The translations under genes and the position numbers were made by a program. From Photobacterium swingsii (lineage in GTDB: Bacteria; Pseudomonadota; Gammaproteobacteria; Enterobacterales; Vibrionaceae): a DNA stretch of 64,000 bases. The notes beneath the pieces are model-generated. The model had not been told where the DNA came from. It ran no database searches and saw only the letters and a program-made list of their open reading frames with translations. Below are positions 22,379 through 64,000 of this stretch, piece after piece; positions within the stretch are counted from its first letter, which is position 1, and every line of letters begins with the position of its first letter. Where the stretch lies: NCBI RefSeq assembly GCF_024346715.1, contig NZ_AP024853.1, forward strand, positions 868,001 to 932,000. Reading direction: 5' to 3'.

Positions 22379-23383
22379 TCAATGGTTCGCTAAATAATTT
22401 TCCACCTGAGCGCGGTAATCCGCTTTAAGTGCATCGCTGATAAAGCTACCGTTGATCGCATTGATCGTAAATTGTGCCAACTCTTGCTTACTCATTGGGT
22501 GAGCATTGCTAACGGCTAAAAAGTTATCCGTCATGTAACCACCAAAGTAAGCGGGATCGTCAGAATTGATGGTCACCGCTACGCCTTTACGAAGAAGTTC
22601 AGCGATATTATGTTGTTCCATTTCATCAAATACCCGCAGTTTAATGTTAGAAAGCGGGCACACTGTTAACGGCATTTTGCTGTCTATTAACGCTTCGAGT
22701 AACAGCTCATCTTCTACACAACGTACACCGTGATCAACACGGCTAACACTTAGCATTTCGACTGCATCGACAATATTCTGTGCTGGGCCTTCTTCTCCTG
22801 CATGAGCCACCGTCAGTAAACCAGCCTCTTTAGCTTGTTGGAACACACGTTTGAACTTTGCTGGTGGATGCCCTTGCTCTGAAGAGTCCAGCCCTACCCC
22901 AATAATTTTATCTTTATGCTTCAAGATAGATTGCAGGGTTTCTATCGCATTTTGCTCCGGCAAATGGCGCAAGAAGCACGCGATGATTTGCGAACTAATA
23001 CCCAGTTGCTTATGACCATCTTGCATCGCGCGGTGAATGCCGTTGATAACGGTATCGAAAGGAATACCACGATCTGTATGCGTTTGCGGATCAAAGAAGA
23101 TTTCAGTATGGATAACGTTATCGGCTTTAGACTTTTCTAAGTATGCCCAAGTCAGATCGTAAAAATCTTGCTCGGTACGTAACGCGTTAGCACCTTGGTA
23201 GTAAATATCTAAAAAAGACTGTAAATCTTCAAACTCGTAAGCTTTGCGAAGGGCTTGTGGGGATTGATATGGAATATCGATGTCATTACGTTTAGCTAAT
23301 TCAAACAATAATTCTGGCTCTAGTGAACCTTCGATATGTAAGTGCAGCTCTACTTTAGGAAGACCCTGAATAAATGCGTTCAT
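22379..23383 (-). CDS. Adenine deaminase (adenosine deaminase-like, type 2)
   Basis: A 334-residue amidohydrolase. Metal and catalytic residues are visible: HxH in [15 protein letters not shown], His in VAHAGEEGP, His in VDHGVR, and Asp in [12 protein letters not shown]. The wording [15 protein letters not shown] and [14 protein letters not shown] is that of the bacterial group shown in Pseudomonas to act on adenine and not adenosine, so adenine to hypoxanthine plus ammonia is the likely reaction (purine salvage). The start may be the ATG at 23383 (used here) or the one at 23395; neither has a textbook ribosome site. Monocistronic. Confidence 0.88.
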
Positions 23384-23825
23384 ATTCTCATCCATCTTTT
23401 CTTATGATTATTGTGGATACAATTACTCTAAGAATAGGCACAGATTTGAAAAAAACGAACGCCATTACAAAGAGTAAGATCCACCGCGATCTCAACTCTT
23501 CGTAATCAGCACTTTGAGGGCGCTGGTAGAGACCCCCAAACCATATCATTGGGGTTATACGAAGCAAACGTCAGTAATTATACGCCAAAAGTGATGCTTG
23601 GCCAGAGCTTATGGATCTTCTGTGATTTAAAGCGTGTTACTTAGTATGTACTTTGGATGTCAATTAATGAATTAGAAAAGCGCACCTTTGGTCGCTTTAT
23701 ACCTATATAGTGAAATATTTTCGTCGAAAAACGGGTACATAGCGCATCATGAAAGATGCCCTCTTTCATCACAAATTCATTTAAGCTATTGTATTTAAAG
23801 TTATTTAAAATAAAAATCTCACCTT
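23384..23825. other. Intergenic region between adenine deaminase and the 1207-residue orphan
   Basis: 442 bp between divergent genes, with no reading frame worth calling. It holds two small hairpins: CCCCAA/TTGGGG at 23534-23554 and ATGAAAGA/TCTTTCAT at 23749-23769. The latter lies 56 bp before the orphan's start. No recognised operator. Confidence 0.4.
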
Positions 23826-52023: not shown

Positions 52024-53304
52024 TTACGCAGGGCCAACTAAGGTTGGATTGGTTTTAATACCACTCCATTCATACCAACCGCCATCGTAAACGCTAATGT
52101 CTTTCCAGCCCATCACATAAGCATAGAAAAACGTTTCTGATGCCCGCCAACCTGTACCACAGTAGAAAGATACTTTCTGGTCACGATCGATTTCCCATTG
52201 ATGCCAAAAATGCTCAATCTCATCAGCACTTTTCATGGTGTCATCAGGGTTACGGAAATCCTCAAGACTATTGGCATCACTACCGCCATGCCCCCACTTC
52301 GCCCCCGGTATGCGCCCTTTCGGTTTGATGTAATGGTACCCACTGATCTTACCTAAGTACTCATCCCAACTACGGATACTCACCAACGAGTTATTTTGAG
52401 GAGCGCCATCGAGAATAGCTTTCGCTTCAGCCATATCAATAATCAGCTCTGGGTTGGCAGGAATATCACGGCCAAAATCCATCACTTTATCGGTTTTTTG
52501 CAGCATAGGTTCAGACGCAAAACCAGCGTTTACCCAAGATTTCCAGCCTCCGTTAAGTAAGCGGACATCTTCAACACCAGCGTACATCATTATGCTCGCT
52601 GCACGCGCCGCGGCCATATTATCGCGCCCATACAAGATCACTGTGGTGTCATAACGAATACCAAGATCTTGCATTAATGTCGTTAGTTTTTCATTGCTTA
52701 CACGATTCCAAAGCGGTTTAGTTTCAATGTTATTGGTATTCAAATACAAGGCTGTGGGTATGTGTGAAACTAGGTACTTAGTTGGTGGCCCCCATGCGAC
52801 CTCGACTAACTTATACCCTTTTTTAGGGGCGTAGAGTGGTTGCTGACCATCAATCACTTGTTTCACCCATTCAGGACTCACAAGCTGCTGGAATTGAGGT
52901 AAAGCTGTGAGTGAACCTGAATAATTTGAAAGTGGTTCTTCAATTGCTTTAACCGATCTAAACCCTTGACTTAACAGTGCCTTTTCCACTCTCTGGCTAT
53001 CTGCTTGAGCACAATATAGATAGGTTGGCTGATCGACCTTCAGTTGTTTATCCACCAACAACTGTTTAAACGCTGAGTCTTCAATCATCCCTAGCCATTG
53101 AGCATCTAAGTTAACAGCACCAGGATAATGTCCTCCTTGCTTAGCACCGATTTCAGGCCAACCGTTATAGTAATTACTCGATCGGCAATCAATCACTTGC
53201 GTTGATTCATCAAGGCTTTTAGATAACTGATCAAACGTCATTGCTTGAAGTCCAAAACTTGAAAAAACAATAACAGGTACCAGCACTTTCCTCATTGTAT
53301 TCAT
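52024..53304 (-). CDS. ynjE: Exported triple-rhodanese sulfurtransferase (YnjE-like)
   Basis: A 426-residue protein with a signal peptide (VLVPVIVFSSFGLQA) and three rhodanese-like domains. The first (about 25-130) has YLYCAQADSQR, the second (about 165-265) has VILYGRDNMAAA where the catalytic Cys is Gly, and the third (about 285-420) has the active loop FYCGTGWRAS with Cys 382. Length and domain order match E. coli YnjE, whose active Cys is also in CGTGWRAS. It transfers sulfur from thiosulfate or a similar donor. AAGG at 7 nt supports the start. It is monocistronic, next to the glycine reductase region. Confidence 0.87.
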   Translation of the reverse strand: MNTMRKVLVPVIVFSSFGLQAMTFDQLSKSLDESTQVIDCRSSNYYNGWPEIGAKQGGHYPGAVNLDAQWLGMIEDSAFKQLLVDKQLKVDQPTYLYCAQADSQRVEKALLSQGFRSVKAIEEPLSNYSGSLTALPQFQQLVSPEWVKQVIDGQQPLYAPKKGYKLVEVAWGPPTKYLVSHIPTALYLNTNNIETKPLWNRVSNEKLTTLMQDLGIRYDTTVILYGRDNMAAARAASIMMYAGVEDVRLLNGGWKSWVNAGFASEPMLQKTDKVMDFGRDIPANPELIIDMAEAKAILDGAPQNNSLVSIRSWDEYLGKISGYHYIKPKGRIPGAKWGHGGSDANSLEDFRNPDDTMKSADEIEHFWHQWEIDRDQKVSFYCGTGWRASETFFYAYVMGWKDISVYDGGWYEWSGIKTNPTLVGPA

Positions 53305-53623: not shown

Positions 53624-54787
53624 CTAGCCTAAGAACTCCGTTTCAACTAGGCGAGCTTTGGCAGCATCGATATCTTCCTTCGCAACTAAGATAATCGGGC
53701 CTGTACAGCCCATCCCAGTGCGAGCAAAGATATTTGCTTGCCACAATGATTGGCATGCATCTTCAATCTCTAAGATATCAATGCCACCGATCTCCGAGTC
53801 TGTCACCTTTTCAGGTGGTGCGACGACGGTTTCTTTGGTTTCTACTGGCGCTTTTGGCTGACAATATTTTGCCAGAGTACTGTTTAAGCCTGATAAGGTT
53901 GCTGCTTCCCACTCCTCGTCAACGCGCTTCATTACCTCTCCTTTTGCTGCGTCTGCACATAATCTCATGGCTCCTGCCACAACTGGTGCCCCTGACGCCC
54001 GAGAGATAATATTCACTAGCTTACCTGCCGTACCTTCACCTAAGCCCGGTCCATAACCAAAGCCCGAGGCTTCATAGCTACCACCTGTAGTGAACGAAGA
54101 GAACATTTTCATCAGCAAATTGCCGGTTAGGCTATCAGTCACCATGACATCTGGTGTACCTTGCAGCAAATCATTACCGCGCATGGCAATTCCGCCATCA
54201 GCTCGTCCTGATTCTGCAAAATGAATGTCATAACCCGCTTGTTGAAGGTCTCGTAGACCACGCTCACAGAGGGCTGCACCATCAATGTTTAGCACCCCAA
54301 CCGTTGGCTTTTCGATCCCCGTCGCTTTTGCTAGTGCAATCCCATACAAGGTGTTTTTGAGCATCGCCGCTTGACGATTGGTATCTGTGGTACCTGTGGT
54401 AGAGGCAATGATCATCTCACGCCCAGTACCCGGTGTTACCACTTTACCCATGGTGCTCACACCGAGAGGAAAGGCATAATGCAAAGTGACACAGCCGTCG
54501 ATTTGCTTTTGCTCAAACAAGCTTTCCATCACTTGGTGGCATTGGTTTAAATCCTCTGCAGGGTGGCATTCAAAACCACACTCAGGATCATTACAACCAA
54601 TGAGCACAGGTTCGATGTCGCTGTGTTGTCGTGCAACTAACTGAGCACCACGAAGCAGTTCTTGTGGGCCGTGTTCGCTGCCGATCAGCGTAAGCGCAAT
54701 TCGGGTTTTCTTACCAAATTGTCCACTTAACAGGCCATCCGCCATTGCTGAAAACGTGTCGGACAGTTGTTGATTGATATTAGCCAT
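53624..54787 (-). CDS. grdD: Glycine reductase complex component C, subunit alpha (GrdD)
   Basis: A 387-residue protein of the PlsX-like phosphate-acyltransferase fold, recognisable as GrdD from TRIALTLIGSEHGPQELLRGA, TVGVLNIDGAALCERGLRDL and DVMVTDSLTGNLLMKMFSSF. With GrdC it forms protein C, which takes the carboxymethyl-selenide from GrdA and releases acetyl phosphate. It is the last gene of the minus-strand grd unit, 12 bp after grdC with GGAGG before ATG. The C-terminal GIDILEIEDACQSLWQANIFARTGMGCTGPI region is typical of the family. Confidence 0.93.
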   Translation of the reverse strand: MANINQQLSDTFSAMADGLLSGQFGKKTRIALTLIGSEHGPQELLRGAQLVARQHSDIEPVLIGCNDPECGFECHPAEDLNQCHQVMESLFEQKQIDGCVTLHYAFPLGVSTMGKVVTPGTGREMIIASTTGTTDTNRQAAMLKNTLYGIALAKATGIEKPTVGVLNIDGAALCERGLRDLQQAGYDIHFAESGRADGGIAMRGNDLLQGTPDVMVTDSLTGNLLMKMFSSFTTGGSYEASGFGYGPGLGEGTAGKLVNIISRASGAPVVAGAMRLCADAAKGEVMKRVDEEWEAATLSGLNSTLAKYCQPKAPVETKETVVAPPEKVTDSEIGGIDILEIEDACQSLWQANIFARTGMGCTGPIILVAKEDIDAAKARLVETEFLG

Positions 54788-54799
54788 CGCAACCTCCGA

Positions 54800-56341
54800 T
54801 TACTTCTCGCTCTTCGCGTTGAGCAAGTTCTCAGCCACATCGCGCATTGCTTGCGCCACAACCTGTTTCACTTGATTCTCATCGAACACTTCATCTTGCT
54901 TGCCGCTGTTCTTTTGAACCACAAAGCTCAAACCATCAAACAAGTTAGTCATACGACCTAAGAACAAGCTGCCTTTACCTACCATCATGAAGTTTTTGAT
55001 TTCATCATTGAGGATCATGTCACGGCCAAAACCAAGGAAAGGAACGCCCGATGGAATATGCCCTTGCGTAGGTGCAAAGCCTGTCATGCCATGTTTCTCA
55101 ACGAATGCAGGTAATTGTGTACGCTCCATCTGCCCTTCTTTCACTGCTAGCGCTGCAATCATTTTGTAGTTTGATTCCGGCACATTCCCTGCACCTGCAG
55201 GCTTAGTGATTTCAGGGTTTTGCATTTCTACTGAGTACTTGTCGATGTCTGTCATCTTCATGCCAGCGGCTTTAAGCGGCGCGGCAATCAGAGCTGTCAT
55301 CACAGCTTGTGGTGATGAGCCAGTACCAATTTGATGACGACCAACGATGTCTGTATTAATCTCAGGGCTCACACCGTCATTTTCCGTTACCATGCACGCA
55401 AAACCAGCTAGGCAATCTTCCAGCACAGGCATATTTTGTTTCACATGGTCACGACCATTCATACCCAGTTTGGCAACAGCACCACCAGCAACAACCATGA
55501 CATTTTTGAAAATGCCAGATTTCACTAACGCAGCCGCTAATGTCATTGCGTGCGCAGGCGCCGCACAGAAACCACGAACATCAGAACCGGTTGCACTGTT
55601 ACAGCCGATCACTTCACCAATAGCTTTTGCGAAGTTACCGCCGCCACGTTGGTTGATGTCACCACACGCTTCTTCTGAACATTCGATCAAGTAGTCGACT
55701 TTATCTAATTCAATACCTTGCTGTTTCAAATGCATCGCAGCCATAACGCCTGATGCTTTCGTGCAAAGGTTTTCTAGCATGATATGCGCTGATAAGTTTT
55801 CGTCTTCATCGTGCGCGGCTTTCACACAACCTACCAACTCACCATTCATCATCAATACTTCAGCTTGGTGATGTTCTGTCAGTGCTAGAATTTCATCTTT
55901 AGTGATGATCTGATGACCCGCCAGTAAATCAACATCATCACCGTATAAAGGATGGTGCGCCACTTGCGCGTGGTATGTGTCGATAAACTCTTGAGTCAGT
56001 TGCACCAAATTGAACACGTCTACGTGGTTCAACATGGCATAAAATTGAGGCTGGTTGTAGATTTCACCGAACTGACCTTGCTGAGCTGTGTGCTCTTTAT
56101 TTTCAAACCAAGGTTGTGGGATATCTGCTAATTGCTGCGGGGTTAGGTTTCCGATGTAACACTGGTTAGCGGGGTAAGATACTACGTCTTCGAATGGGCG
56201 AAGGTGATCTTTTAGTTGCTTCAAGTACGGGTCTGAAGGATCTTTTGCCCTTGACTGTACTTGTACCGAACCGTGTTGAATTAATACATCTGGTGTATGG
56301 GCGAGCACGTAGCTCACACCTTTAATTACTGCGTATCCCAT
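54800..56341 (-). CDS. grdC: Glycine reductase complex component C, subunit beta (GrdC)
   Basis: A 513-residue protein with the thiolase/KAS III-like fold of GrdC: N-terminal GYAVIKGVSYVLAHTPDVL, ECSEEACGDINQRGGGNFAKAIGE, and SDVRGFCAAPAHAM, which may hold the active cysteine. It joins GrdD in component C to convert the Se-carboxymethyl group on GrdA to an acetyl thioester and then acetyl phosphate. GGAG stands 5 nt before ATG. It lies 78 nt after the second grdA; that gap holds a small inverted repeat at 56371-56404. Confidence 0.94.
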   Translation of the reverse strand: MGYAVIKGVSYVLAHTPDVLIQHGSVQVQSRAKDPSDPYLKQLKDHLRPFEDVVSYPANQCYIGNLTPQQLADIPQPWFENKEHTAQQGQFGEIYNQPQFYAMLNHVDVFNLVQLTQEFIDTYHAQVAHHPLYGDDVDLLAGHQIITKDEILALTEHHQAEVLMMNGELVGCVKAAHDEDENLSAHIMLENLCTKASGVMAAMHLKQQGIELDKVDYLIECSEEACGDINQRGGGNFAKAIGEVIGCNSATGSDVRGFCAAPAHAMTLAAALVKSGIFKNVMVVAGGAVAKLGMNGRDHVKQNMPVLEDCLAGFACMVTENDGVSPEINTDIVGRHQIGTGSSPQAVMTALIAAPLKAAGMKMTDIDKYSVEMQNPEITKPAGAGNVPESNYKMIAALAVKEGQMERTQLPAFVEKHGMTGFAPTQGHIPSGVPFLGFGRDMILNDEIKNFMMVGKGSLFLGRMTNLFDGLSFVVQKNSGKQDEVFDENQVKQVVAQAMRDVAENLLNAKSEK

Positions 56342-56370
56342 TGTTACTCCTGCATCCGAGCCGGATAAAA

Positions 56371-56404
56371 GGTTCGAACCCGCTTTAATAAACAGATCCG
56401 AACC
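56371..56404 (-). other. Intercistronic hairpin between grdA2 and grdC
   Basis: GGTTCG and CGAACC pair across 22 bases; on the minus strand TTTT follows. It could attenuate transcription or protect the upstream message, giving more GrdA than GrdC and GrdD. The stem is only 6 bp. Confidence 0.4.
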
Positions 56405-56419
56405 AGCATTGAGATATAC

Positions 56420-56884
56420 TTATGCTAATGCAGTTTCGCTGCGGTATTGTTGCATTTCCGCTTTGATAGCATCGACATCAAGTACCATTTCCATCATTCC
56501 AACTTGCTCTTCATAGACAGCTGGATCAACGGCATTTTTAACTTCGTCTTCCACCACGTGATAACAAGAAAGTCCTAACTGGACTCCCGCCAATGGTCCT
56601 GCAAAAGTCGGATCACCTGTGGTGACAGTTTCACATGCTAGGCCAGAAGCTTCTGCTTCTGCGCCGCCAAGAATCACAACAAGATTCTCTGCGCCTTTTT
56701 CCTCAGCAAGTGCTTTAATCCGCTTTTGATTTTCCAGATCCATTGCGCCAGCGCTTGTTCAGACGAAACATTCTGTAGTAGAGAAAGCAACGTGAGCACC
56801 TGTGGTCTTCATGCAAGTTTCAATTGCCTGACCAGGTACGCCATCGCGGTCTCCAAGAATGATCACTGTTTTATTAGCGAACAC
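56420..56884 (-). CDS. grdA: Glycine reductase selenoprotein A, second copy (contains Sec)
   Basis: A 154-residue selenoprotein. Translation from GTG 56884 (GGGAG at 7 nt) gives [20 protein letters not shown], then ECFV, then an in-frame TGA at 56759-56761 (residue 42), then [11 protein letters not shown]. The C-F-V-U motif is the invariant GrdA site, so the TGA encodes selenocysteine; a naive call would start at the internal Met 48 and lose the active site. GrdA carries the carboxymethyl group on Sec between GrdB and component C and is re-reduced by thioredoxin. It starts 14 bp after the other grdA copy. By eye the two proteins are about three quarters identical, diverging most at the C-terminus. 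Confidence 0.95.
56745..56761 (-). other. Selenocysteine UGA codon and possible SECIS hairpin, grdA copy 2
   Basis: TGA at 56761-56759. Four bases later GCG/CGC (56754-56752 with 56747-56745) can close a CTGG loop. A loop with paired Gs fits bacterial SECIS elements, but the stem shown is short and a full fold was not computed. The third-base changes relative to copy 1 keep the pairing. Confidence 0.6.
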
Positions 56885-56898
56885 AATCTTTCTCCCGA

Positions 56899-57366
56899 TT
56901 AAACATACTTTCCGAATTGCTCACGATACTCTTTGACCTCTGCCACTATGGCATCGACATCAAGTACCATTTCCATCATGCTTATCTGTTCGTCATAGAC
57001 GTCAGCATCCACATTGTCTTTAATTTCCGGCTCAACCACATGATAACAAGAGAGTCCTAACTGGACTCCGGCTAATGGACCGGCAAAAGTAGGATCGCCG
57101 TTTGTAACGGTTTCACACGCTAGGCCAGAAGCTTCTGCTTCCGCACCACCAAGTACGACTACCAGATTCTCTGGGCCGAACTCTTCAGCAAAACCTTTGA
57201 TCCTCTTCTGGTTTTCCAGATCCATAGCACCTGCGCTGGTTCAGACGAAACACTCAGTTGTAGAGAAAAGAACATGCGCACCAGCAGTTTTAATACAAGC
57301 TTCAATTGCTTGTCCTGGTACACCATCTCTGTCTCCCAAGATAATAACTTTCTTATCTTTGAGCAT
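56899..57366 (-). CDS. grdA: Glycine reductase selenoprotein A, first copy (contains Sec)
   Basis: A 155-residue selenoprotein read from ATG 57366 (GGAG about 7 nt before). The start [18 protein letters not shown] leads to ECFV and an in-frame TGA at 57241-57243 (residue 42), followed by [11 protein letters not shown]. It has the same role as the second copy. Other conserved parts are [20 protein letters not shown] and [23 protein letters not shown]. It lies 214 bp downstream of trxA, a gap that may hold its own promoter or processing site. A tandem duplication of grdA is unusual; both copies are intact and have diverged, suggesting they are old and both used. Confidence 0.95.
57226..57243 (-). 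other. Selenocysteine UGA codon and possible SECIS hairpin, grdA copy 1
   Basis: TGA at 57243-57241; AGCG (57237-57234) and TGCT (57229-57226) can pair around CAGG, starting 4 bases after the UGA. Copy 2 keeps this pairing with a compensating change (G-U here, G-C there). Confidence 0.6.
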
Positions 57367-57580
57367 TGTTCACTCCAAGGGTACAGATTACTACGATCAT
57401 GCTTATCAGCTTATGGAACACCACATACTGAGTTCACATGGATTTTATAAAGCACTTTTTTTCCTACCCTGCTTTCATCGAAAGCCATGTAGAGAAAGCG
57501 AGGCTTATATTTGCGCCAACAGGCCGTTGCCTATTAAATACAAATTCATTGGGTGTAAATCAGCTACACCTAGTTATACT
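57367..57580 (-). other. Leader region between trxA and grdA
   Basis: 214 bp without a gene. Read on the minus strand it has GGTGTA-N7-TACACC about 16 bp after the trxA stop, and a weaker GGCAAC/GTTGGC pairing. I looked for glycine-riboswitch motifs and saw none. Confidence 0.4.
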
Positions 57581-57907
57581 TTATGCTGTTTCCGCGATGT
57601 AGCTTTCTACTTTGCTTGCAACATCTTCCATTTCTAACTCTTCGCCAGAAAGGTGTTCAATTTTTTCACCGTTTTTGTAGAAAACGAAAGATGGTAGGCC
57701 CATTACTTTCTGCGCCATCGCTAAACGACGGTTACCCTGAATGTTCAGTTTGCAGAACTTAATTTCATTACCGTACTTCTCAGCCAATTCCATCACTTCT
57801 GGCATCAATTCAATGCAGCGACCACAACTTTCGCTCCAGAAATCTACCAGCACGATGCCATCGACTTTCACTTCAGCATCAAAGTTATCTTTATTTAGTT
57901 CGATCAT
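57581..57907 (-). CDS. trxA: Thioredoxin of the glycine reductase system
   Basis: A 108-residue thioredoxin. FWSESCGRCIELMPEV puts the redox pair at C28/C31 with CGRC instead of the housekeeping CGPC; cis-proline is in MGLPSFVFYKNGE. The altered dipeptide is in line with the dedicated thioredoxins of glycine reductase operons, which have atypical active sites. It should reduce GrdA's mixed selenide-sulfide after each turnover. It lies 10 bp after trxB with AAGGG before ATG. Confidence 0.92.
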   Translation of the reverse strand: MIELNKDNFDAEVKVDGIVLVDFWSESCGRCIELMPEVMELAEKYGNEIKFCKLNIQGNRRLAMAQKVMGLPSFVFYKNGEKIEHLSGEELEMEDVASKVESYIAETA

Positions 57908-57917
57908 TGCGTTTCCC

Positions 57918-59129
57918 TTAATACAGAGTATCTAACTCAGCAATATCCTTAACATCCACTCGCTTGGCTTCCTGCCCAGCGTCAAATCGGATCACAACCG
58001 GCACTTCAGAAACCGAGAAGCGGTTTGCAATATTTTGACTCTTGTAGGTATCAATGGTGACAACACGCTGATCAGGCTTATCTTTGCAATCTTGTTCTAG
58101 CTGGTTAATCACCGCTAAGCTTTCTTTGCTTAATGGGTTCCAGAACGCCACCATTGCCGTGCCACCAAATTCAGAGACAGACTTGCGCCAGTTTTCTTCT
58201 TCTTCGATATAACGGTCAGCTGCAACTGCTGCGACTGCACCATCGCCCGCAGCGGTAACCACTTGACGAAGGAATTTATCTGTTACATCACCAACAGCAA
58301 AAATACCAGGAACATTAGTTTCTTGTTTTTCGTTGGTAATCACATAGCCTTGTGGCGTTAGTGCCACTTGGCCTTTAATGAAGTCTGTTTTTGGCACGGT
58401 GCCAACAAACATAAAGACACCGTCAGTGGATAACTCAGAGATCTCACCTGTTTTAAGGTGCTTAAGTTTCACACCAGTAACAAGCTCATCGCCACAGATT
58501 TCTTCAACTACAGAGTTCCAAACAAATTCAATTTTATCGTTCGCAAATGCTTGTTCTTGCGCTGTACGATCCGCATCGAGAATGCCTTGATCATGCAGTA
58601 CGATCATGGTGACTTTGTTGACAAACTTGGTCAGGAATACAGATTCTTCAACCGCAGTGTTTCCAGACCCCACTACGACGACATCAAGCTCTTCGTAGAA
58701 ATCCGCATCACAAGTTGCACAGTATGAAACACCTTTACCACGGAACTCAGATTCGCCCGTAATACCTAGAATGCGAGGGGTAGCCCCTGTTGCAACTATG
58801 ATACTTTTGGTTTGGTACGTTTCACCTTTACTGGTTGTTAGCGTCTTAATAAAGCCATCATCAGCAATAGTGATATCAGACACGAGTCCACGAGCAAACT
58901 CCACACCAAACTTATTACAGTGTTCACGGAACATATCCATCAACTGCGGACCTGTTGCTTCCACAATACCTGGGTAGTTTTCCATTTCACTGGTTGTCGC
59001 GGCTTGACCGCCTGTGTTGCGCTTATCTTCAATGATTAGGGTTTTCATTTTGCCACGAGCGGCATAGACCCCAGCTGACATACCACCAGCACCGCCACCA
59101 ATTATGATGACATCGTATAGTTCAGACAT
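57918..59129 (-). CDS. trxB: Thioredoxin reductase with extra degenerate thioredoxin-like domain
   Basis: A 403-residue flavoenzyme; standard TrxB is about 310-320. Residues 1-310 are a normal TrxB: IIIGGGAGGMSAG for FAD, redox pair CATC (137-140), VVVGSGNTAVEE for NADPH, and IFAVGDVTDKFLRQV. Residues about 318-403 look like thioredoxin: MVAFWNPLSKES occupies the place of the usual FWAPWCGPC, so both cysteines are serine (334, 337), while the cis-Pro in SEVPVVIRF is kept. It reduces TrxA with NADPH. ATG 59129 is preferred (GGTGA at 5 nt) over GTG 59138. It is the first gene of the minus-strand grd unit. Confidence 0.92.
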   Translation of the reverse strand: MSELYDVIIIGGGAGGMSAGVYAARGKMKTLIIEDKRNTGGQAATTSEMENYPGIVEATGPQLMDMFREHCNKFGVEFARGLVSDITIADDGFIKTLTTSKGETYQTKSIIVATGATPRILGITGESEFRGKGVSYCATCDADFYEELDVVVVGSGNTAVEESVFLTKFVNKVTMIVLHDQGILDADRTAQEQAFANDKIEFVWNSVVEEICGDELVTGVKLKHLKTGEISELSTDGVFMFVGTVPKTDFIKGQVALTPQGYVITNEKQETNVPGIFAVGDVTDKFLRQVVTAAGDGAVAAVAADRYIEEEENWRKSVSEFGGTAMVAFWNPLSKESLAVINQLEQDCKDKPDQRVVTIDTYKSQNIANRFSVSEVPVVIRFDAGQEAKRVDVKDIAELDTLY

Positions 59130-60045
59130 ATAATTCACCGATTGCTATTTCACGACTACATGCCCTTTCATCCTGAAAGGAATAGTAAGGACATATCAAA
59201 ACAAATCAGTTTTGTGACAGCTTCTCTAATAAGGTGGCAAGTATTAATAACTGTGAACCAAATCACTTAGACTTTAATAAGCTGCTAATTGGAATCTGGA
59301 TAGCAAAATATAGCTATATACCACCCAAATATAATCTCTTCTGCTTTTAACTTGTAAGTGATTATAAATAGTAATGTTTATTTTTTTGTGAGCAAAGCCT
59401 AATTACAGTATAAAATTCTTCACGATCTAAAAATATGATACTTAAATCATAAACTAACCATACGATTAGTTATGTAACTCATCATGAAAAGAACAAAATT
59501 GAATATAAAGCACTATACTTTGACTATCATTGGAAATATTGACTCTTATAATCACCAAATTCTTTCTCCCTTAATATAAAATTAACAATACGTAAAGGAA
59601 GCAATACTACTTTTTTCACTTTGGGTTAAAAACGGGCAAAATATATTACATTAGGAAAAATAATGACTGGCTTTAAAATATCTATTCTATTGTTATTCCC
59701 TCTATTTTCACTCTAAGCAGAGTAACCTATTACTAGTGTTTTATTGCCTCGAATCAAATAAACCTTCCTACTTTGGTTAACTTTATTTATGCATCTATTT
59801 ATTAGAATCCCATTGATACCAGTCAGTTCTAATTACAAATATCATTAAATAATCACCTTACTGAACTTTTATTACCAATAAGCCAATTACACAACTGTTG
59901 GTTTATTAATTTACAAATGACTCAATAAAGCAGCGTTTAATTTTGATATTTTTATATCTATAAGAAGATCATCCTCACAAACGCTTGCATATGCAGAATG
60001 ATAACCTCCGACTCGAATCATCATTAATAAATGCGGAGTAAGGCA
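59130..60045. other. Long AT-rich divergent region between trxB and the aminopeptidase
   Basis: 916 bp, strongly AT-rich, the largest gene-free stretch here. It must hold the promoters of both grd-side units. Visible items: dyad AACTAA-N8-TTAGTT (59452-59471); a 17-codon frame at 59663-59716 with AGGA before ATG and a hydrophobic product; AGCGTTT/AAACGCT arms around 59932 and 59979. No glycine riboswitch, FNR or sigma-54 consensus was found by eye. Confidence 0.5.
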
Positions 60046-61443
60046 ATGGAAACGCTTAAGTTCACAAATGGTTGGCTCGATCTTGATAAAAAGAGAATTG
60101 ATGAAATAAACCTGTTTAATGAAGGCTACAAACACTTTTTAGACCAAGGAAAAACAGAAAGGCAGTGCGTGACTGTCTCAATTGCTCAAGCAGAACAACA
60201 CGGTTTCCGTCCTATTTCTGAATTTGAACAATTAGTTGCTGGTGATAAAGTGTACTTTATTAACCGCCATAAGAATGTTGTCCTCGCTATTATCGGGCAA
60301 CGTCCAATCAGCGAGGGAATTCGCTACGTCGTTTCTCACATTGACTCACCAAGATTAGACTTAAAACCATCACCAGTCTACGAGAAATGTGAACTCGCGC
60401 TGATGCGAACTCACTACTATGGTGGCATCAAAAAATACCAATGGGCCTCACGCCCTCTCGCACTGCACGGCATTGTCGTTACCAAGTCTGGCCGCAAAGT
60501 CGATATTGCGATTGGTGAAGATGATAGTGATCCAGTTTTCACTATCCCAGACCTACTTCCACACCTAGATCGCAAAGTACAGCGTGAGCGTAAAGCCGAT
60601 GAAGTACTAAAAGGCGAAGAGCTTCAAATCGTGGTTGGCTCTGTACCGATGACTTTTGATGATGAAAAAATCAAAGACACAGTCAAACACCACGTATTAA
60701 CTAAGCTGTTCGAAAAATACGAAATTAGTGAGCCTGATTTTATCTCTGCTGAGTTGATGTTAGTGCCTGCTGGTAAAGCACGCGATGTGGGTTTAGATCA
60801 CGGTATTATTGGTGCTTACGGCCAGGATGACCGTATCTGTGCTTACACCTCACTTGAAGCAATTTTCGATATCGATACACCAGAGCAAACTGCGGTGTGC
60901 TTCTTGGTCGATAAAGAAGAAATTGGCTCGACAGGTGCAACAGGCCTAGAGTCACGTTACCTCGAATTCTTTACGGGTGAATTACTGGTGCGTCAAGCTG
61001 GCGGCCAATACAACGACCAAATGCTGCGTCGCTGTTTATGGCAATCTTACGCCCTATCTTCTGATGTCAACGCTGGACTTAACCCACTGTTTGAATCTGT
61101 TCATGATGCACAAAATGCCTCAAAACTGGGTTACGGCTTAGTACTTACTAAGTACACAGGGCACGGTGGTAAAGTCGCCTCAAACGATGCTGATGCTGAA
61201 TATGTGGCTGCGTTGCGTCGTATTTTCGATGATACAGAAATTAAGTGGCAAACCGGTTTGCTTGGCAAAGTAGACGAAGGGGGCGGCGGTACAGTGGCGA
61301 AATACCTAGCACATTACGGTATTAACACAATTGATGCAGGGGCGGCGATCTTATCGATGCACTCACCGTTCGAGCTCTCTTCTAAGTTCGATGTGCATGA
61401 ACTTTACCGTGCTTACAAAGCTTTCTACATGCAGGCGCTATAA
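60046..61443 (+). CDS. M18-family metallo-aminopeptidase
   Basis: A 465-residue zinc aminopeptidase of family M18 (aspartyl aminopeptidase/Ape type). Metal and catalytic residues: His and Asp in VVSHIDSPRLDLKP, the glutamates of LVDKEEIGSTGATG, and His in LSMHSPFELSSKFDVHELYRAYKAFY. No signal peptide, so cytoplasmic. ATG 60046 with GGAG at 7 nt is chosen over 60031. It lies 24 bp before a peptide transporter gene and diverges from the grd operon, suggesting it trims imported peptides to free amino acids, including glycine. Confidence 0.9.
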   Translation: METLKFTNGWLDLDKKRIDEINLFNEGYKHFLDQGKTERQCVTVSIAQAEQHGFRPISEFEQLVAGDKVYFINRHKNVVLAIIGQRPISEGIRYVVSHIDSPRLDLKPSPVYEKCELALMRTHYYGGIKKYQWASRPLALHGIVVTKSGRKVDIAIGEDDSDPVFTIPDLLPHLDRKVQRERKADEVLKGEELQIVVGSVPMTFDDEKIKDTVKHHVLTKLFEKYEISEPDFISAELMLVPAGKARDVGLDHGIIGAYGQDDRICAYTSLEAIFDIDTPEQTAVCFLVDKEEIGSTGATGLESRYLEFFTGELLVRQAGGQYNDQMLRRCLWQSYALSSDVNAGLNPLFESVHDAQNASKLGYGLVLTKYTGHGGKVASNDADAEYVAALRRIFDDTEIKWQTGLLGKVDEGGGGTVAKYLAHYGINTIDAGAAILSMHSPFELSSKFDVHELYRAYKAFYMQAL

Positions 61444-61467
61444 CCTCAGCATCATGGAGATACGATC

Positions 61468-62949
61468 ATGAAAAAGCGTCATCCGTTAACCTTTTATATT
61501 CTTTGTTCATGCCAGTTCTGGTGGGCGTTATCTTTCTATAGCCTATGGGCTATTTTGCCTGTTTTCTTAGGCGATGAGCTGGGGATAGACCAAAAAACGT
61601 CGTTTGCTACTTTTGGTGCATTTGCTGCATTGGGTGCTGCGATGCTGTTTGTCGGTGGTTGGCTAGCCGATAAAATCTTAGGGGCAAAACGTACCTTAGT
61701 TTGGGGGTTCTTCTTCCAAGGTTTAGGGTATTTCATCATCGCTTACTCTGCGATCACTGCGCAACCACACTTCGTATTCATTGGTTTGGGTACTGTTGCT
61801 GTAGGTCGTGGTATCGGTAGTGTGGCGCCACCAACCATTATTGCGGCATCGTATGAGAAAAACGATCCACGCTTAGATGGTGCCTACACCCTGTTCTACA
61901 TGGTGAATAACATTGGTGCTTTCATTGCACAGTTAGGCGCACCTATCATGGCGTACAGCATTGGCTGGACTTCAGCCTTCATCTTGTCGGCCGTGGGCAT
62001 GACAGTCAACGTCGTCACCTACTTGTTATTCAATAAGAAAATCAAGGAAGCTACCGAAGCCGACCAACACGCTGTACCATTCAAAACGAACAGCTTGTTC
62101 TTGGCTGGGGTACTACTCACTATTGCGACTGCGAGTTACTTGCTAACTAACCTACCACTTGCACAAGCGGTACTGGGTATTGCCGCTATGGTTATTTTGT
62201 TCCTCATCATGAAAGAGATGAAGAAAGAAGAACCGACTAGCCGCAAACGCATGATTGTTGGTTTGGTCTTGATGGTGCAAGCGCTGGCATTCTTTGTACT
62301 TTACAATCAAATGCCAACATCACTTAATTTCTTTGCGATCAACAACGTAGAGCCTGAGATATTTGGTATACCTGTTAACCCTGTTTCTTACCAATCACTT
62401 AACCCTATGTGGGTTATCTTCCTTAGCCCTATTCTCGCCCATATCTATACAACCTTGGGAGAGAAAGGCAAAGACTTGTCAATGCCTGGTAAGTTCGCAC
62501 TCGGTATGCTGATTTGTGCTGCAGCCTTTGCTTGTGCTGGCTTCTCCCAATACTTTGGCGACGAGAATGGCATGCTCAATCCATTCTGGATTGCTGCACC
62601 ACACTTCTTGTTCGCAATTGGTGAGTTGTTGATTTCTGCCTTGGGTCTATCGGCTATTGCTAAACTATTCCCAAGTCGTATCCGTGGCTTTATTTACGGG
62701 GCGTGGAACATGACACTGGCTCTCGCCTCTGTAGCTGGAGCTTGGGTGGCAGGCTTGTCTTCAAGCGGTGAAGTAGAAATGACCCCAGTAGAAAGCTTGG
62801 CGTCTTACGGTAATTACTTCTACATGCTTGCGATTGCCTCTGCCGTTGTTGGTGTCGTGTGTGTATACCTAGCACCACGTCTTAACAAGTTGATTGAAAC
62901 CGATGTTGAAGGCGATATCGACCATAAAGATGCACAAACCGCATCCTAA
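61468..62949 (+). CDS. POT-family proton-dependent peptide transporter
   Basis: A 493-residue MFS protein of the POT/PTR family (DtpA-like), about 14 helices. Characteristic motifs are FVGGWLADKILGAKRTLVWG, the second POT signature around YTLFYMVNNIGAFIAQLGAPI, and FAIGELLISALGLSAIAKLFPSRIRGF. It imports di- and tripeptides with protons. GGAG precedes ATG, and it is co-transcribed with the M18 aminopeptidase. A bidirectional terminator follows. Confidence 0.93.
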   Translation: MKKRHPLTFYILCSCQFWWALSFYSLWAILPVFLGDELGIDQKTSFATFGAFAALGAAMLFVGGWLADKILGAKRTLVWGFFFQGLGYFIIAYSAITAQPHFVFIGLGTVAVGRGIGSVAPPTIIAASYEKNDPRLDGAYTLFYMVNNIGAFIAQLGAPIMAYSIGWTSAFILSAVGMTVNVVTYLLFNKKIKEATEADQHAVPFKTNSLFLAGVLLTIATASYLLTNLPLAQAVLGIAAMVILFLIMKEMKKEEPTSRKRMIVGLVLMVQALAFFVLYNQMPTSLNFFAINNVEPEIFGIPVNPVSYQSLNPMWVIFLSPILAHIYTTLGEKGKDLSMPGKFALGMLICAAAFACAGFSQYFGDENGMLNPFWIAAPHFLFAIGELLISALGLSAIAKLFPSRIRGFIYGAWNMTLALASVAGAWVAGLSSSGEVEMTPVESLASYGNYFYMLAIASAVVGVVCVYLAPRLNKLIETDVEGDIDHKDAQTAS

Positions 62950-63018
62950 TTAAAACTTGGGCTCAATGAAAATTGAGTCTAAGCCTTCAAAGGAAATATA
63001 ATAAAAACAGCAACATAA

Positions 63019-63045
63019 AAGCCGCATAGTGACCCTATGCGGCTT
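63019..63045. terminator. Bidirectional terminator
   Basis: AAGCCGCATAG and CTATGCGGCTT: 11-bp stem, 5-base loop, then ATTTG on one side and TTTTATG on the other. It lies between the convergent peptide transporter and DsrE genes. Confidence 0.85.
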
Positions 63046-63079
63046 ATTTGTATGTATTAAGTGGTTGATAAGCTATAAA

Positions 63080-63442
63080 TTAAAAGCAAACCACTTTGTC
63101 GGCCTGTAACGTCCACATCGACAAGTCATCCAGTGTACCAATTTCAGCACCCTCTATCAGTGGAAGCTCACTCATTCCTCTGGCATTGCAACACGTCTTG
63201 CATAGCTTCACTTTTGCACCTTGTGCAAGTAATATTTCTAGCATTTGTTGGACGTGATACCCCTCACCTGGCGTCTGCTTTGGTAAGGCACAACTCACCG
63301 CATCAGACATCAAAAAAACCATAATATTGGTCTTGATTTCTTGCTCATTAAGATTAATGGCCAGCCTTAAACCATTGAAAGAACGCTCCGAACCATACGG
63401 TGCATCATTTAATATAAACAGTAAAGTTTGTTCATTTCCCAT
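63080..63442 (-). CDS. ychN: DsrE/DsrF-like protein, YchN family
   Basis: A 120-residue cytosolic protein close to E. coli YchN throughout: NDAPYGSERSFNGLRLAI, VFLMSDAVSCALPKQTPGEGY and VKLCKTCCNARGM. Cysteines in CKTCC are candidates for persulfide or selenium handling, as in sulfur-relay DsrE proteins. The start is ATG 63442 (AAGGA about 10 nt before), which removes 19 residues of a longer frame. It stands between the peptide transporter and grdX; a role in selenium or sulfur supply is possible but only by position. Confidence 0.85.
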   Translation of the reverse strand: MGNEQTLLFILNDAPYGSERSFNGLRLAINLNEQEIKTNIMVFLMSDAVSCALPKQTPGEGYHVQQMLEILLAQGAKVKLCKTCCNARGMSELPLIEGAEIGTLDDLSMWTLQADKVVCF

Positions 63443-63750
63443 TATTTTAAAGTCCTTCTTGAATGCACATCTTGTTGAGATTAAATATCTAAAAAGCACT
63501 ACTACCCACTATTGTACCCGTATCGTGGGTAATGAAACCTGCATAGCATCAAAGGGATTAAAATAAACATTATAATGACAAAAAACGTCTTAACTCACTT
63601 TAATATGCGTGTTCATTTCTCCTCTACCCATCTATTTAACCAAGAGGTGTTTATCATTGTAAAATACGAGGTAAGCCATAAAAAATCAGCTTTATAAGGA
63701 TTATAATTAAGGTGTGATATTGCAAAGATTAAATATTATCAAGGAGCATC
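63443..63750. other. Divergent region between ychN and grdX
   Basis: 308 bp, AT-rich, no gene. It has an inverted repeat TACCCAC-N15-GTGGGTA at 63503-63531, 61-89 bp upstream of the ychN start, whose right arm also pairs with TACCC at 63516-63520. Otherwise I see nothing recognisable; the grdX promoter must be here. Confidence 0.45.
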
Positions 63751-64000
63751 ATGAGAGCTGATAGATTAGAGATCATCACTAACAACCCAAGTATTAACGT
63801 TGATAACAGTGCGATAACAATCATTCGAAAAAATACAGTTAATGATGTTTTGACGTTTACTCGAGATCAAGTTCACCTCGGGTATAAAGTTATTTCACAC
63901 CCTCTTGCTGGCAGTGTAAAACCACATGAAACACCTTATCGAAGTATTGTGATTTATCGTGATGACAGTTTAGACATGGATTCACTAAATACCATTGAGC
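63751..64000 (+). CDS. grdX: GrdX, 5' part (cut by window edge)
   Basis: Open from ATG 63751 (AAGGAG before it) to the window edge, 83 codons, so not seen as a closed frame. The text EIITNNPSINVDNSA, RDQVHLGYKVISHPLAGSVKPHETPY and DDSLDMDSLNTIE is that of GrdX, a small protein found at the head of glycine, sarcosine and betaine reductase operons. Its biochemical role is not established. In other operons it precedes grdE and grdB, so these probably follow to the right. Confidence 0.9.
   Translation, partial: MRADRLEIITNNPSINVDNSAITIIRKNTVNDVLTFTRDQVHLGYKVISHPLAGSVKPHETPYRSIVIYRDDSLDMDSLNTIE

Follow-up and report, generated by a model that had tools for sequence, protein, structure and literature searches.

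A glycine reductase and selenocysteine-decoding island in Photobacterium swingsii, with a conserved RNA hairpin in the distal part of grdA

We analysed a window of 64,000 nucleotides of Photobacterium swingsii (bases 868001-932000 of contig C2, NZ_AP024853.1, which at 1.83 Mb is the smaller contig of a two-contig, 5.65-Mb genome), and conclude that it very probably holds one half of a complete and intact island for glycine reductase (Grd) and the decoding of selenocysteine (Sec). Both copies of grdA, which encodes selenoprotein A, carry far behind their Sec codon a conserved hairpin that almost certainly forms in the sense-strand RNA. Genes were called from NCBIfam profile matches, given here as bits against the cut-off of the model, and neighbouring genes from Pfam matches. 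The island features within the window are:

53624..54787, minus strand: grdD, glycine reductase component C alpha (NF040747, 539.7 bits, cut-off 350)
54800..56341, minus strand: grdC, component C beta (NF040746, 772.4 bits, cut-off 450)
56420..56884, minus strand: grdA2, selenoprotein A with GTG start (NF040748, 259.7 bits, cut-off 130), in-frame UGA at 56759-56761
56570..56587, minus strand: distal hairpin GGAGTCCAGTTAGGACTT within grdA2, starting 174 nt from the U of the UGA (genome-wide pattern match)
56899..57366, minus strand: grdA1, selenoprotein A (NF040748, 275.5 bits, cut-off 130), in-frame UGA at 57241-57243
57052..57069, minus strand: distal hairpin GGAGTCCAGTTAGGACTC within grdA1, starting 174 nt from the U of the UGA (genome-wide pattern match)
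57581..57907, minus strand: trxA, clostridial-type thioredoxin of the complex with active site CGRC (NF047697, 148.2 bits, cut-off 140)
57918..59138, minus strand: trxB, thioredoxin reductase, extended at its C-terminus by about 90 residues (TIGR01292, 347.3 bits, cut-off 343.45)
63751..64000, plus strand: 5' part of grdX, 138 aa in full and extending beyond the window (NF038093, 101.3 bits, cut-off 40)

All these genes score above their NCBIfam cut-offs, and both grdA genes encode CFVUTSAGA (CxxU) with a single in-frame UGA. An earlier reading made from the sequence only had proposed trxB-trxA-grdA-grdA-grdC-grdD on one strand and the start of grdX on the other as a glycine reductase set in a Vibrionaceae-type genome, and was borne out by the family matches and by the full Sec machinery adjoining them. 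It had also named the region past position 64000 as the place to look for grdE, grdB and selA/selB/selC/selD, and held that the cluster would be non-functional if grdB/grdE or the Sec machinery were missing from the whole genome; all were found within 10 kb past the edge. The minus strand there carries grdB, grdE and selD1 and the plus strand tRNA-Sec, selA, selB and selD2, which makes the Sec-decoding trait complete (selA, selB, selC and selD). Both grdB (codon 348) and selD1 (codon 7) contain one in-frame UGA at the Sec position of the family, while selD2 is coded with cysteine. The tRNA-Sec matches RF01852 with 63.1 bits, and grdB has an RF01990 match for a selenocysteine insertion sequence (SECIS). 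The GrdB motif STUGTCTRCG fits the UxxCxxC of the Sec-containing beta subunit of component B, and GrdE (PF09338, 668.6 bits) has kept the Asn-Cys pair with Cys244, which we take to be the pyruvoyl processing site. A sequence search for solved structures of GrdB and GrdE returned none.

The island genes are all unbroken in the window genome, and their Sec codons are retained in relatives. Over 19 loci (L026-L044, from one Aliivibrio metagenome-assembled genome (MAG) and 18 genomes of Photobacterium, of which two are represented by short contigs) the UGA was present in 33/33 grdA, 19/19 grdB and 19/19 selD1, and none of the three selD2 among these loci contained one. The ratio of non-synonymous to synonymous substitution (dN/dS) against Photobacterium genome G075 was at most 0.065 in 14 of 16 island genes, a sign of purifying selection; values for grdA1 (0.139) and grdA2 (0.302) rest on few synonymous changes, with a dS of only 0.08 and 0.03. 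A decaying foreign remnant, useless to its host, would have a patchy distribution, as the island has within the genus (see below), and might shrink to what was found in the 20-kb stretch read of genome G061, where only selD1, tRNA-Sec, selA, selB, grdX and a scrap of grdD are left and the genome has no GrdB. The unbroken genes and low dN/dS of the window genome speak against such decay, as does the report that the P. profundum cluster is transcribed and pressure-regulated (PMC3505737), and we consider it very improbable.

The two grdA copies stand out at silent sites. In 16 Photobacterium loci, 29/61 and 30/70 four-fold degenerate columns were invariant in the two copies, the highest share in ten other island genes being 19/124 (selD1), while four-fold differences against G075 numbered 2/72 and 2/79 in the grdA copies versus 68/205 in grdB, 65/193 in grdE, 93/208 in grdC and 42/688 in rpoB. 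Codon adaptation is a disfavoured cause of this low synonymous divergence, as the codon adaptation index of grdA1 and grdA2 (0.434 and 0.486) compares with a mean of 0.445 for 24 window open reading frames (rpoB, itself part of the reference set, has 0.726). Conversion between the copies is likewise disfavoured, as the grdA2 rows group together (99/95) without any grdA1 row. Conservation is concentrated in the neighbourhood of the UGA and in a second block at about codons 92-112, and in 181 merged grdA the ten 10-codon windows with the lowest codon entropy all start at codons 92-101.

The second block holds GGAGTC-CAGTTA-GGACTY, folding as AGUCC-A-GUU-A-GGACU, and Bacillota grdA contain the same element written in other codons which preserve the pairing: CCG..TTG gives a C-G loop closure, TCG..TTG gives U.G and C-G, and GTT..GAA places U-A where C-G was, with a Gly-to-Glu change. 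In a first set of 92 full-length grdA all five core pairs were formed in 82, against 4.9 expected from random synonymous codons at the same loci, and the same geometry elsewhere in grdA was reached in at most 41%. For a second set, 398 evenly drawn Bacillota genomes gave 129 matches; without the gene of the centre genome itself and seven fragments of short length 121 were left, and removal of four near-duplicates brought these to 117, none within 3% of the first set. Some of the 121 have a second stop inside the matched stretch and were kept as DNA. Here the hairpin was formed in 101 of 117 grdA, versus 6.8 expected. Counted from the U of the UGA, the hairpin starts at a distance of 174 nt in 111 of the 117 and of 171 or 177 nt in the remaining six; the stem has 5-7 bp, and the loop is (A/C)GUU(A/G) in most. 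The consensus fold over 157 hairpin-bearing genes is this hairpin, which is also carried by grdA of Peptoclostridium acidaminophilum: GGAGTCCAGTTGGGACTA. Exact matches to the pattern occur only twice in the 5.65 Mb of the window genome, one per grdA; the pattern was present in 16 of 24 further genomes or records (19 occurrences). Three other genomes have two matches each, all six inside grdA. A DNA palindrome is disfavoured, as U.G wobbles are common at the two inner C-G pairs (13 and 11 of 92 in the first set, 15 and 32 of 117 in the second).

Several results weigh against the hairpin. In a blind scan of stems with at least four pairs it ranked only 7th of 36 by a covariation-like score, the double changes were unremarkable when the hairpin was slid along the alignment (12, versus 3-33), and in 42-nt windows an upstream GGUCC paired about equally well with its 3' arm. 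We set the higher-ranked stems aside as pairings which any pyrimidine-G or U-purine column will give, and several of them use the bases of the hairpin itself. Sliding lowered the mean pairing from 0.937 to 0.13-0.52. Since the double changes do not stand out, the case for the hairpin rests on pairing relative to synonymous resampling and not on a covariation count. An Rfam search with relaxed threshold gave no match at the grdA genes.

What the hairpin may do is less certain. GrdA is among the commonest bacterial selenoproteins, standing fourth in a published table (PMC5029168). The bacterial SECIS is described as having a stem of 4-16 bp and a loop of 3-9 nt with a G in its first two positions, mostly N1-G-[G/U]-N-N2, at 16-37 nt from the UGA (PMC13188914). 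The distal hairpin resembles this element in its short stem, in a loop with G followed by U and in its location in coding sequence downstream of the UGA, and both stem and loop lie within the model; its GUU loop also recurs in GCAG-GUU-CUGC, the hairpin that follows the UGA of the island's selD1 and is a putative SECIS of that gene. Its start at 174 nt behind the UGA falls outside the spacing of the model, and this counts against a SECIS function.

Canonical proximal SECIS elements were scored as a stem of at least 5 bp with at most one G.U pair, a G in the loop, a spacing of 16-37 nt and at most -5 kcal. This criterion was positive for the UGA-adjacent region of 77/99 grdB (98 when relaxed), and for only 3/94 grdA (6 relaxed), compared to 33/905 for shuffled grdA, and by this measure a canonical proximal SECIS in grdA is at about chance level. 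Among 181 grdA, a canonical proximal hairpin accompanied the distal one in 4 of 157 genes and was present in 13 of the 24 genes that lack the distal one (Fisher p 2e-10, uncorrected for kinship); the remaining 11 of the 24 have neither. With looser thresholds the exclusion weakened but held (13/157 versus 15/24, then 12 versus 15, and 23 versus 17), and the free-fold energy near the UGA differed little (median -7.2 with and -9.5 without the distal hairpin, p 0.011). Cysteine-coded homologues of grdA have been reported in the literature (PMC12013277); here none was found among 122 non-fragment matches (each with TGA), in the five of six plasmid records that were read or in viral contigs.

We tentatively propose that the distal hairpin may be a long-range SECIS of grdA, which would recruit and load SelB from afar in most of the sampled grdA of Bacillota and Gammaproteobacteria, and that lineages which evolved a canonical SECIS adjoining the UGA would have lost it; as a joint claim this is possible rather than probable. 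Weighing against it, besides the spacing, the proximal criterion detects only 4/21 selD (5 relaxed) and thus gives false negatives, and the tree-based test of the exclusion could use two pairs if confined to supported branches, and 11 over the whole tree. We slightly lowered our estimate for the long-range SECIS because the criterion misses most selD genes. The same results favour the other reading, to which we give about an even chance, namely that the hairpin is a real RNA element unrelated to Sec, such as an mRNA stability or processing site: with most selD missed, failure of the criterion in grdA is no proof of absence, alignment folding shows small helices adjoining the grdA UGA, and the independence of the exclusion from descent hangs on those two pairs. 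An unrelated element is at odds with the confinement of the pattern to grdA in the window genome and in the three further genomes where it occurs twice, with the SECIS-like loop shared with selD1, and with the greater frequency of canonical SECIS in grdA without the distal hairpin.

With regard to the substrate of the complex, nine gammaproteobacterial GrdB+GrdE rows formed one clade (100/100). Its nearest neighbour is a Halothermothrix MAG (98/93), and both belong to a group (92/87) that includes the glycine enzyme of Acetoanaerobium noterae; this placement comes from trees with clostridial Grd, as the sequence-only reading had suggested. Forcing a clade with the two GrdF/GrdG pairs of P. acidaminophilum cost 42 log units and was rejected (approximately unbiased (AU) test, p 0.014). 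At columns that distinguish GrdF/GrdG from 64 clostridial rows, residues of the 20 gammaproteobacterial rows are glycine-like at 13 of 18 in GrdB (sarcosine-like at one, neither at four) and at 20 of 27 in GrdE (sarcosine-like at three, neither at four). Tree and residues favour glycine as the predicted substrate over sarcosine; the preference over betaine is less clear.

Other results detract from a glycine assignment. A forced clade with the two betaine GrdH cost 5.4 log units and was not rejected (AU p 0.22), which mainly leaves the root open because GrdH is a long outgroup, and the clostridial comparison set consisted of the 80 best matches to the window GrdB, a choice which favours glycine. 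On the NCBIfam glycine model the window GrdB scored 603.5 against a cut-off of 602.2, a margin of 1.3 bits; GrdB of P. profundum (600.3) and of the Aliivibrio MAG (582.9) fell below the cut-off, and three other GrdB rows scored passed (624.8, 608.1 and 677.3). As P. acidaminophilum GrdF also passes the glycine model (665.2), assignment by these scores alone was rejected. Reduction of betaine (or sarcosine) would suit a marine bacterium that meets such osmolytes, and most relatives share the gene order trxB-trxA-grdA-grdC-grdD-E-B with the betaine cluster of Enterococcus gilvus; this agreement, the GrdH result and the narrow glycine margin speak in favour of such a reading. The window GrdB, however, reached only 493.4 of the 775 bits needed on the GrdH model and 606.1 of 800 on the GrdF model, and is 60% identical to A. 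noterae GrdB, 56% to P. acidaminophilum GrdF and 45% to E. gilvus GrdH. Moreover the clade with GrdF was rejected, and those neighbours searched with Pfam (part of all neighbours) encode a peptidase and a peptide transporter and not a betaine carrier. We consider reduction of betaine or sarcosine improbable.

With glycine as the presumed substrate, the established biochemistry of the family predicts how the encoded enzymes would work. TrxB and TrxA would hand electrons to GrdA, the pyruvoyl-bearing GrdE/GrdB component would bind glycine, the carboxymethyl group would pass from the Sec of GrdB to that of GrdA, and GrdC/GrdD would release acetyl phosphate. Sec would be supplied by the tRNA-Sec, SelA, SelB and selenoprotein SelD of the island, backed by the cysteine-containing SelD2.

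As to distribution and REARRANGEMENT, 19 of the family's 329 genomes, from two of 13 genera, contain GrdB, as do 18 of the 52 Photobacterium genomes. Among these 18, 13 have a contiguous run trxB-trxA-grdA-grdA-grdC-grdD-selD1-grdE-grdB (in several with trxB cut by the stretch read), followed by grdX downstream on the opposite strand in 12 and not seen in one, and a short contig of a fourteenth is compatible with such a run. The run is interrupted in the window genome, G056 and G075, where selD1-grdE-grdB and grdX lie beyond the genes for an oligopeptide transporter (POT family) and an M18 aminopeptidase, and the G074 fragment is compatible with this; rpoB DNA of the window genome and G074 is 98% identical. 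The split of the grd genes with other genes between them, which the sequence-only reading had described, thus stands, and is a derived rearrangement since 13 of the 18 grd-bearing Photobacterium have one contiguous operon. The layout matches the leftovers of a tandem block duplication followed by loss of the outer halves, which may have been the mechanism. Two grdA are present in each of the 16 Photobacterium genomes in which the grdA block was seen, and a single one was seen in what was read of the Aliivibrio MAG, Wohlfahrtiimonas populi and an Oceanospirillales bacterium.

Two further loci concern the distribution. Locus L230 (G061:C1:357001-377000) is a relic island that has kept selD1 with its UGA, tRNA-Sec, selA, selB and grdX; the reductase genes were not found in this 20-kb stretch except for the grdD scrap, and SelD1 is possibly the last selenoprotein of the island. 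Locus L024 (NZ_CP119424.1, Photobacterium sp. DA100) lies on a 2.14-Mb record, likely a second chromosome, which is filed in the plasmid collection, and its grd cluster looks plasmid-borne for that reason.

The island contains two selD genes. P. profundum was described as having a Sec-coded selD beside selAB and a cysteine-coded selD beside ybbB (selU) (PMC1273633, 2005), and 14 of the 18 grd-bearing genomes likewise combine SelU above cut-off with a second SelD that lacks an in-frame UGA and shares 40-41% identity with SelD2. Among the 18, the ordinary selD and SelU were not found in the window genome, G056, G074 and G075, and these are exactly the four in which a cysteine-coded selD2 adjoins selB. 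Their selD2 are 68-84% identical to the window copy, and their selD1 70-74%. SelU above cut-off is missing from 13 of the 52 genomes of the genus, and since nine of these are without grd, the loss of SelU alone is not peculiar to the four. The replacement of selD-selU by selD2 may have been one event: rpoB groups the four genomes (80/81), while in the SelD tree the four selD2 are not a clade (AU p 0.052 for holding them together) and the GrdB tree places G056 with G063/G087. Sec-containing SelD needs its own product, and the pattern suggests that these genomes retain a cysteine SelD to set this loop going, with SelD2 as the putative primer of Sec synthesis. Bacteria with Sec-containing SelD alone are known, so the need for a cysteine SelD is not absolute.

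Some grd-bearing Photobacterium, P. profundum included, have a second selA-selB-tRNA-Sec set (SelB 38-39% identical; loci L231, L232 and L233 of G068, G055 and G063), and two Sec-decoding sets may operate in parallel there; at L231 it adjoins formate-hydrogenlyase-like genes, as read from the open reading frames. A tandem pair of tRNA-Sec genes is present in the grd island at G063:C6:635253-635577 and G087:C1:51961-52303.

Between trxB and grdX the window contains three further genes:

60031..61443, plus strand: M18 aminopeptidase, upstream of trxB (PF02127, 338.4 bits)
61468..62949, plus strand: POT-family oligopeptide transporter (PF00854, 202 bits)
63080..63499, minus strand: DsrE-family protein, separating the two grd blocks in the window lineage (PF02635, 69.5 bits)

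An M18 aminopeptidase gene also adjoins trxB in L024 and L046-L048, and a POT transporter gene is also close to trxB in L024. The C-terminal extension of TrxB, of about 90 residues and without Pfam domain, is matched at or near full length in the Aliivibrio, Oceanospirillales, Wohlfahrtiimonas and Halothermothrix loci (L044, L050-L052) and unmatched in Acetoanaerobium and Paraclostridium. On the minus strand, a gene at 52024-53304 with three rhodanese stretches and a putative N-terminal export signal adjoins grdD, and a purine riboswitch (RF00167, 73.7 bits) at 23483-23582 lies directly upstream of an open reading frame (22379-23395) that reads as a putative adenosine deaminase.

Glycine reductase in Photobacterium is itself already known from surveys from 2005 on, and the statement in the sequence-only reading that selenoprotein surveys list the genus was right (PMC1273633, PMC1242214, PMC1794560). 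For P. profundum the published accounts give two GrdA, one GrdB and a Sec-containing SelD as selenoproteins, as in the window genome, selA/selB on chromosome II, and horizontal acquisition (PMC1273633; PMC1242214 citing Vezzi 2005; PMC3505737). P. profundum (G068) has the contiguous operon and an ordinary selD with selU, whereas the window genome has a split operon and a cysteine-coded selD2 beside selB, the ordinary selD and selU not being found there. The operon of A. noterae (L023) contains the same genes (GrdB 60% and GrdE 62% identical to those of the window) in the order grdX-trxB-trxA-grdE-grdA-grdB-grdC-grdD, with one grdA, which lacks the distal hairpin, a TrxB match that stops at residue 314 and, over the 41 kb read, no sel gene. 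Shewanella sp. MTB7, compared here by its description, is likewise a gammaproteobacterium with grd and sel genes; one grdA is named, the genes are >70% identical to those of Photobacterium, and its authors read this as horizontal transfer (PMC10059138). No earlier description of the distal grdA hairpin was found in the literature searched for it by name, a literature outside which the work on Eubacterium acidaminophilum lies, and the exchange of selD-selU for a cysteine-coded selD2 and the permuted operon were not met in the literature searched, in which neither was looked for by name.

What is new and testable is thus the distal hairpin in grdA and the cysteine-coded selD2 in place of the ordinary selD-selU. 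The island bears on a circular dependency, in that a selenoprotein SelD requires selenophosphate for its own making, and the genomes of the genus that have the island and lack the ordinary selD carry a cysteine copy inside the island. If the hairpin does act as a long-range SECIS, a bacterial SECIS need not sit next to its codon, beside the decoding ribosome, and would in this resemble the elements of archaea and eukaryotes, which act from the 3' untranslated region.

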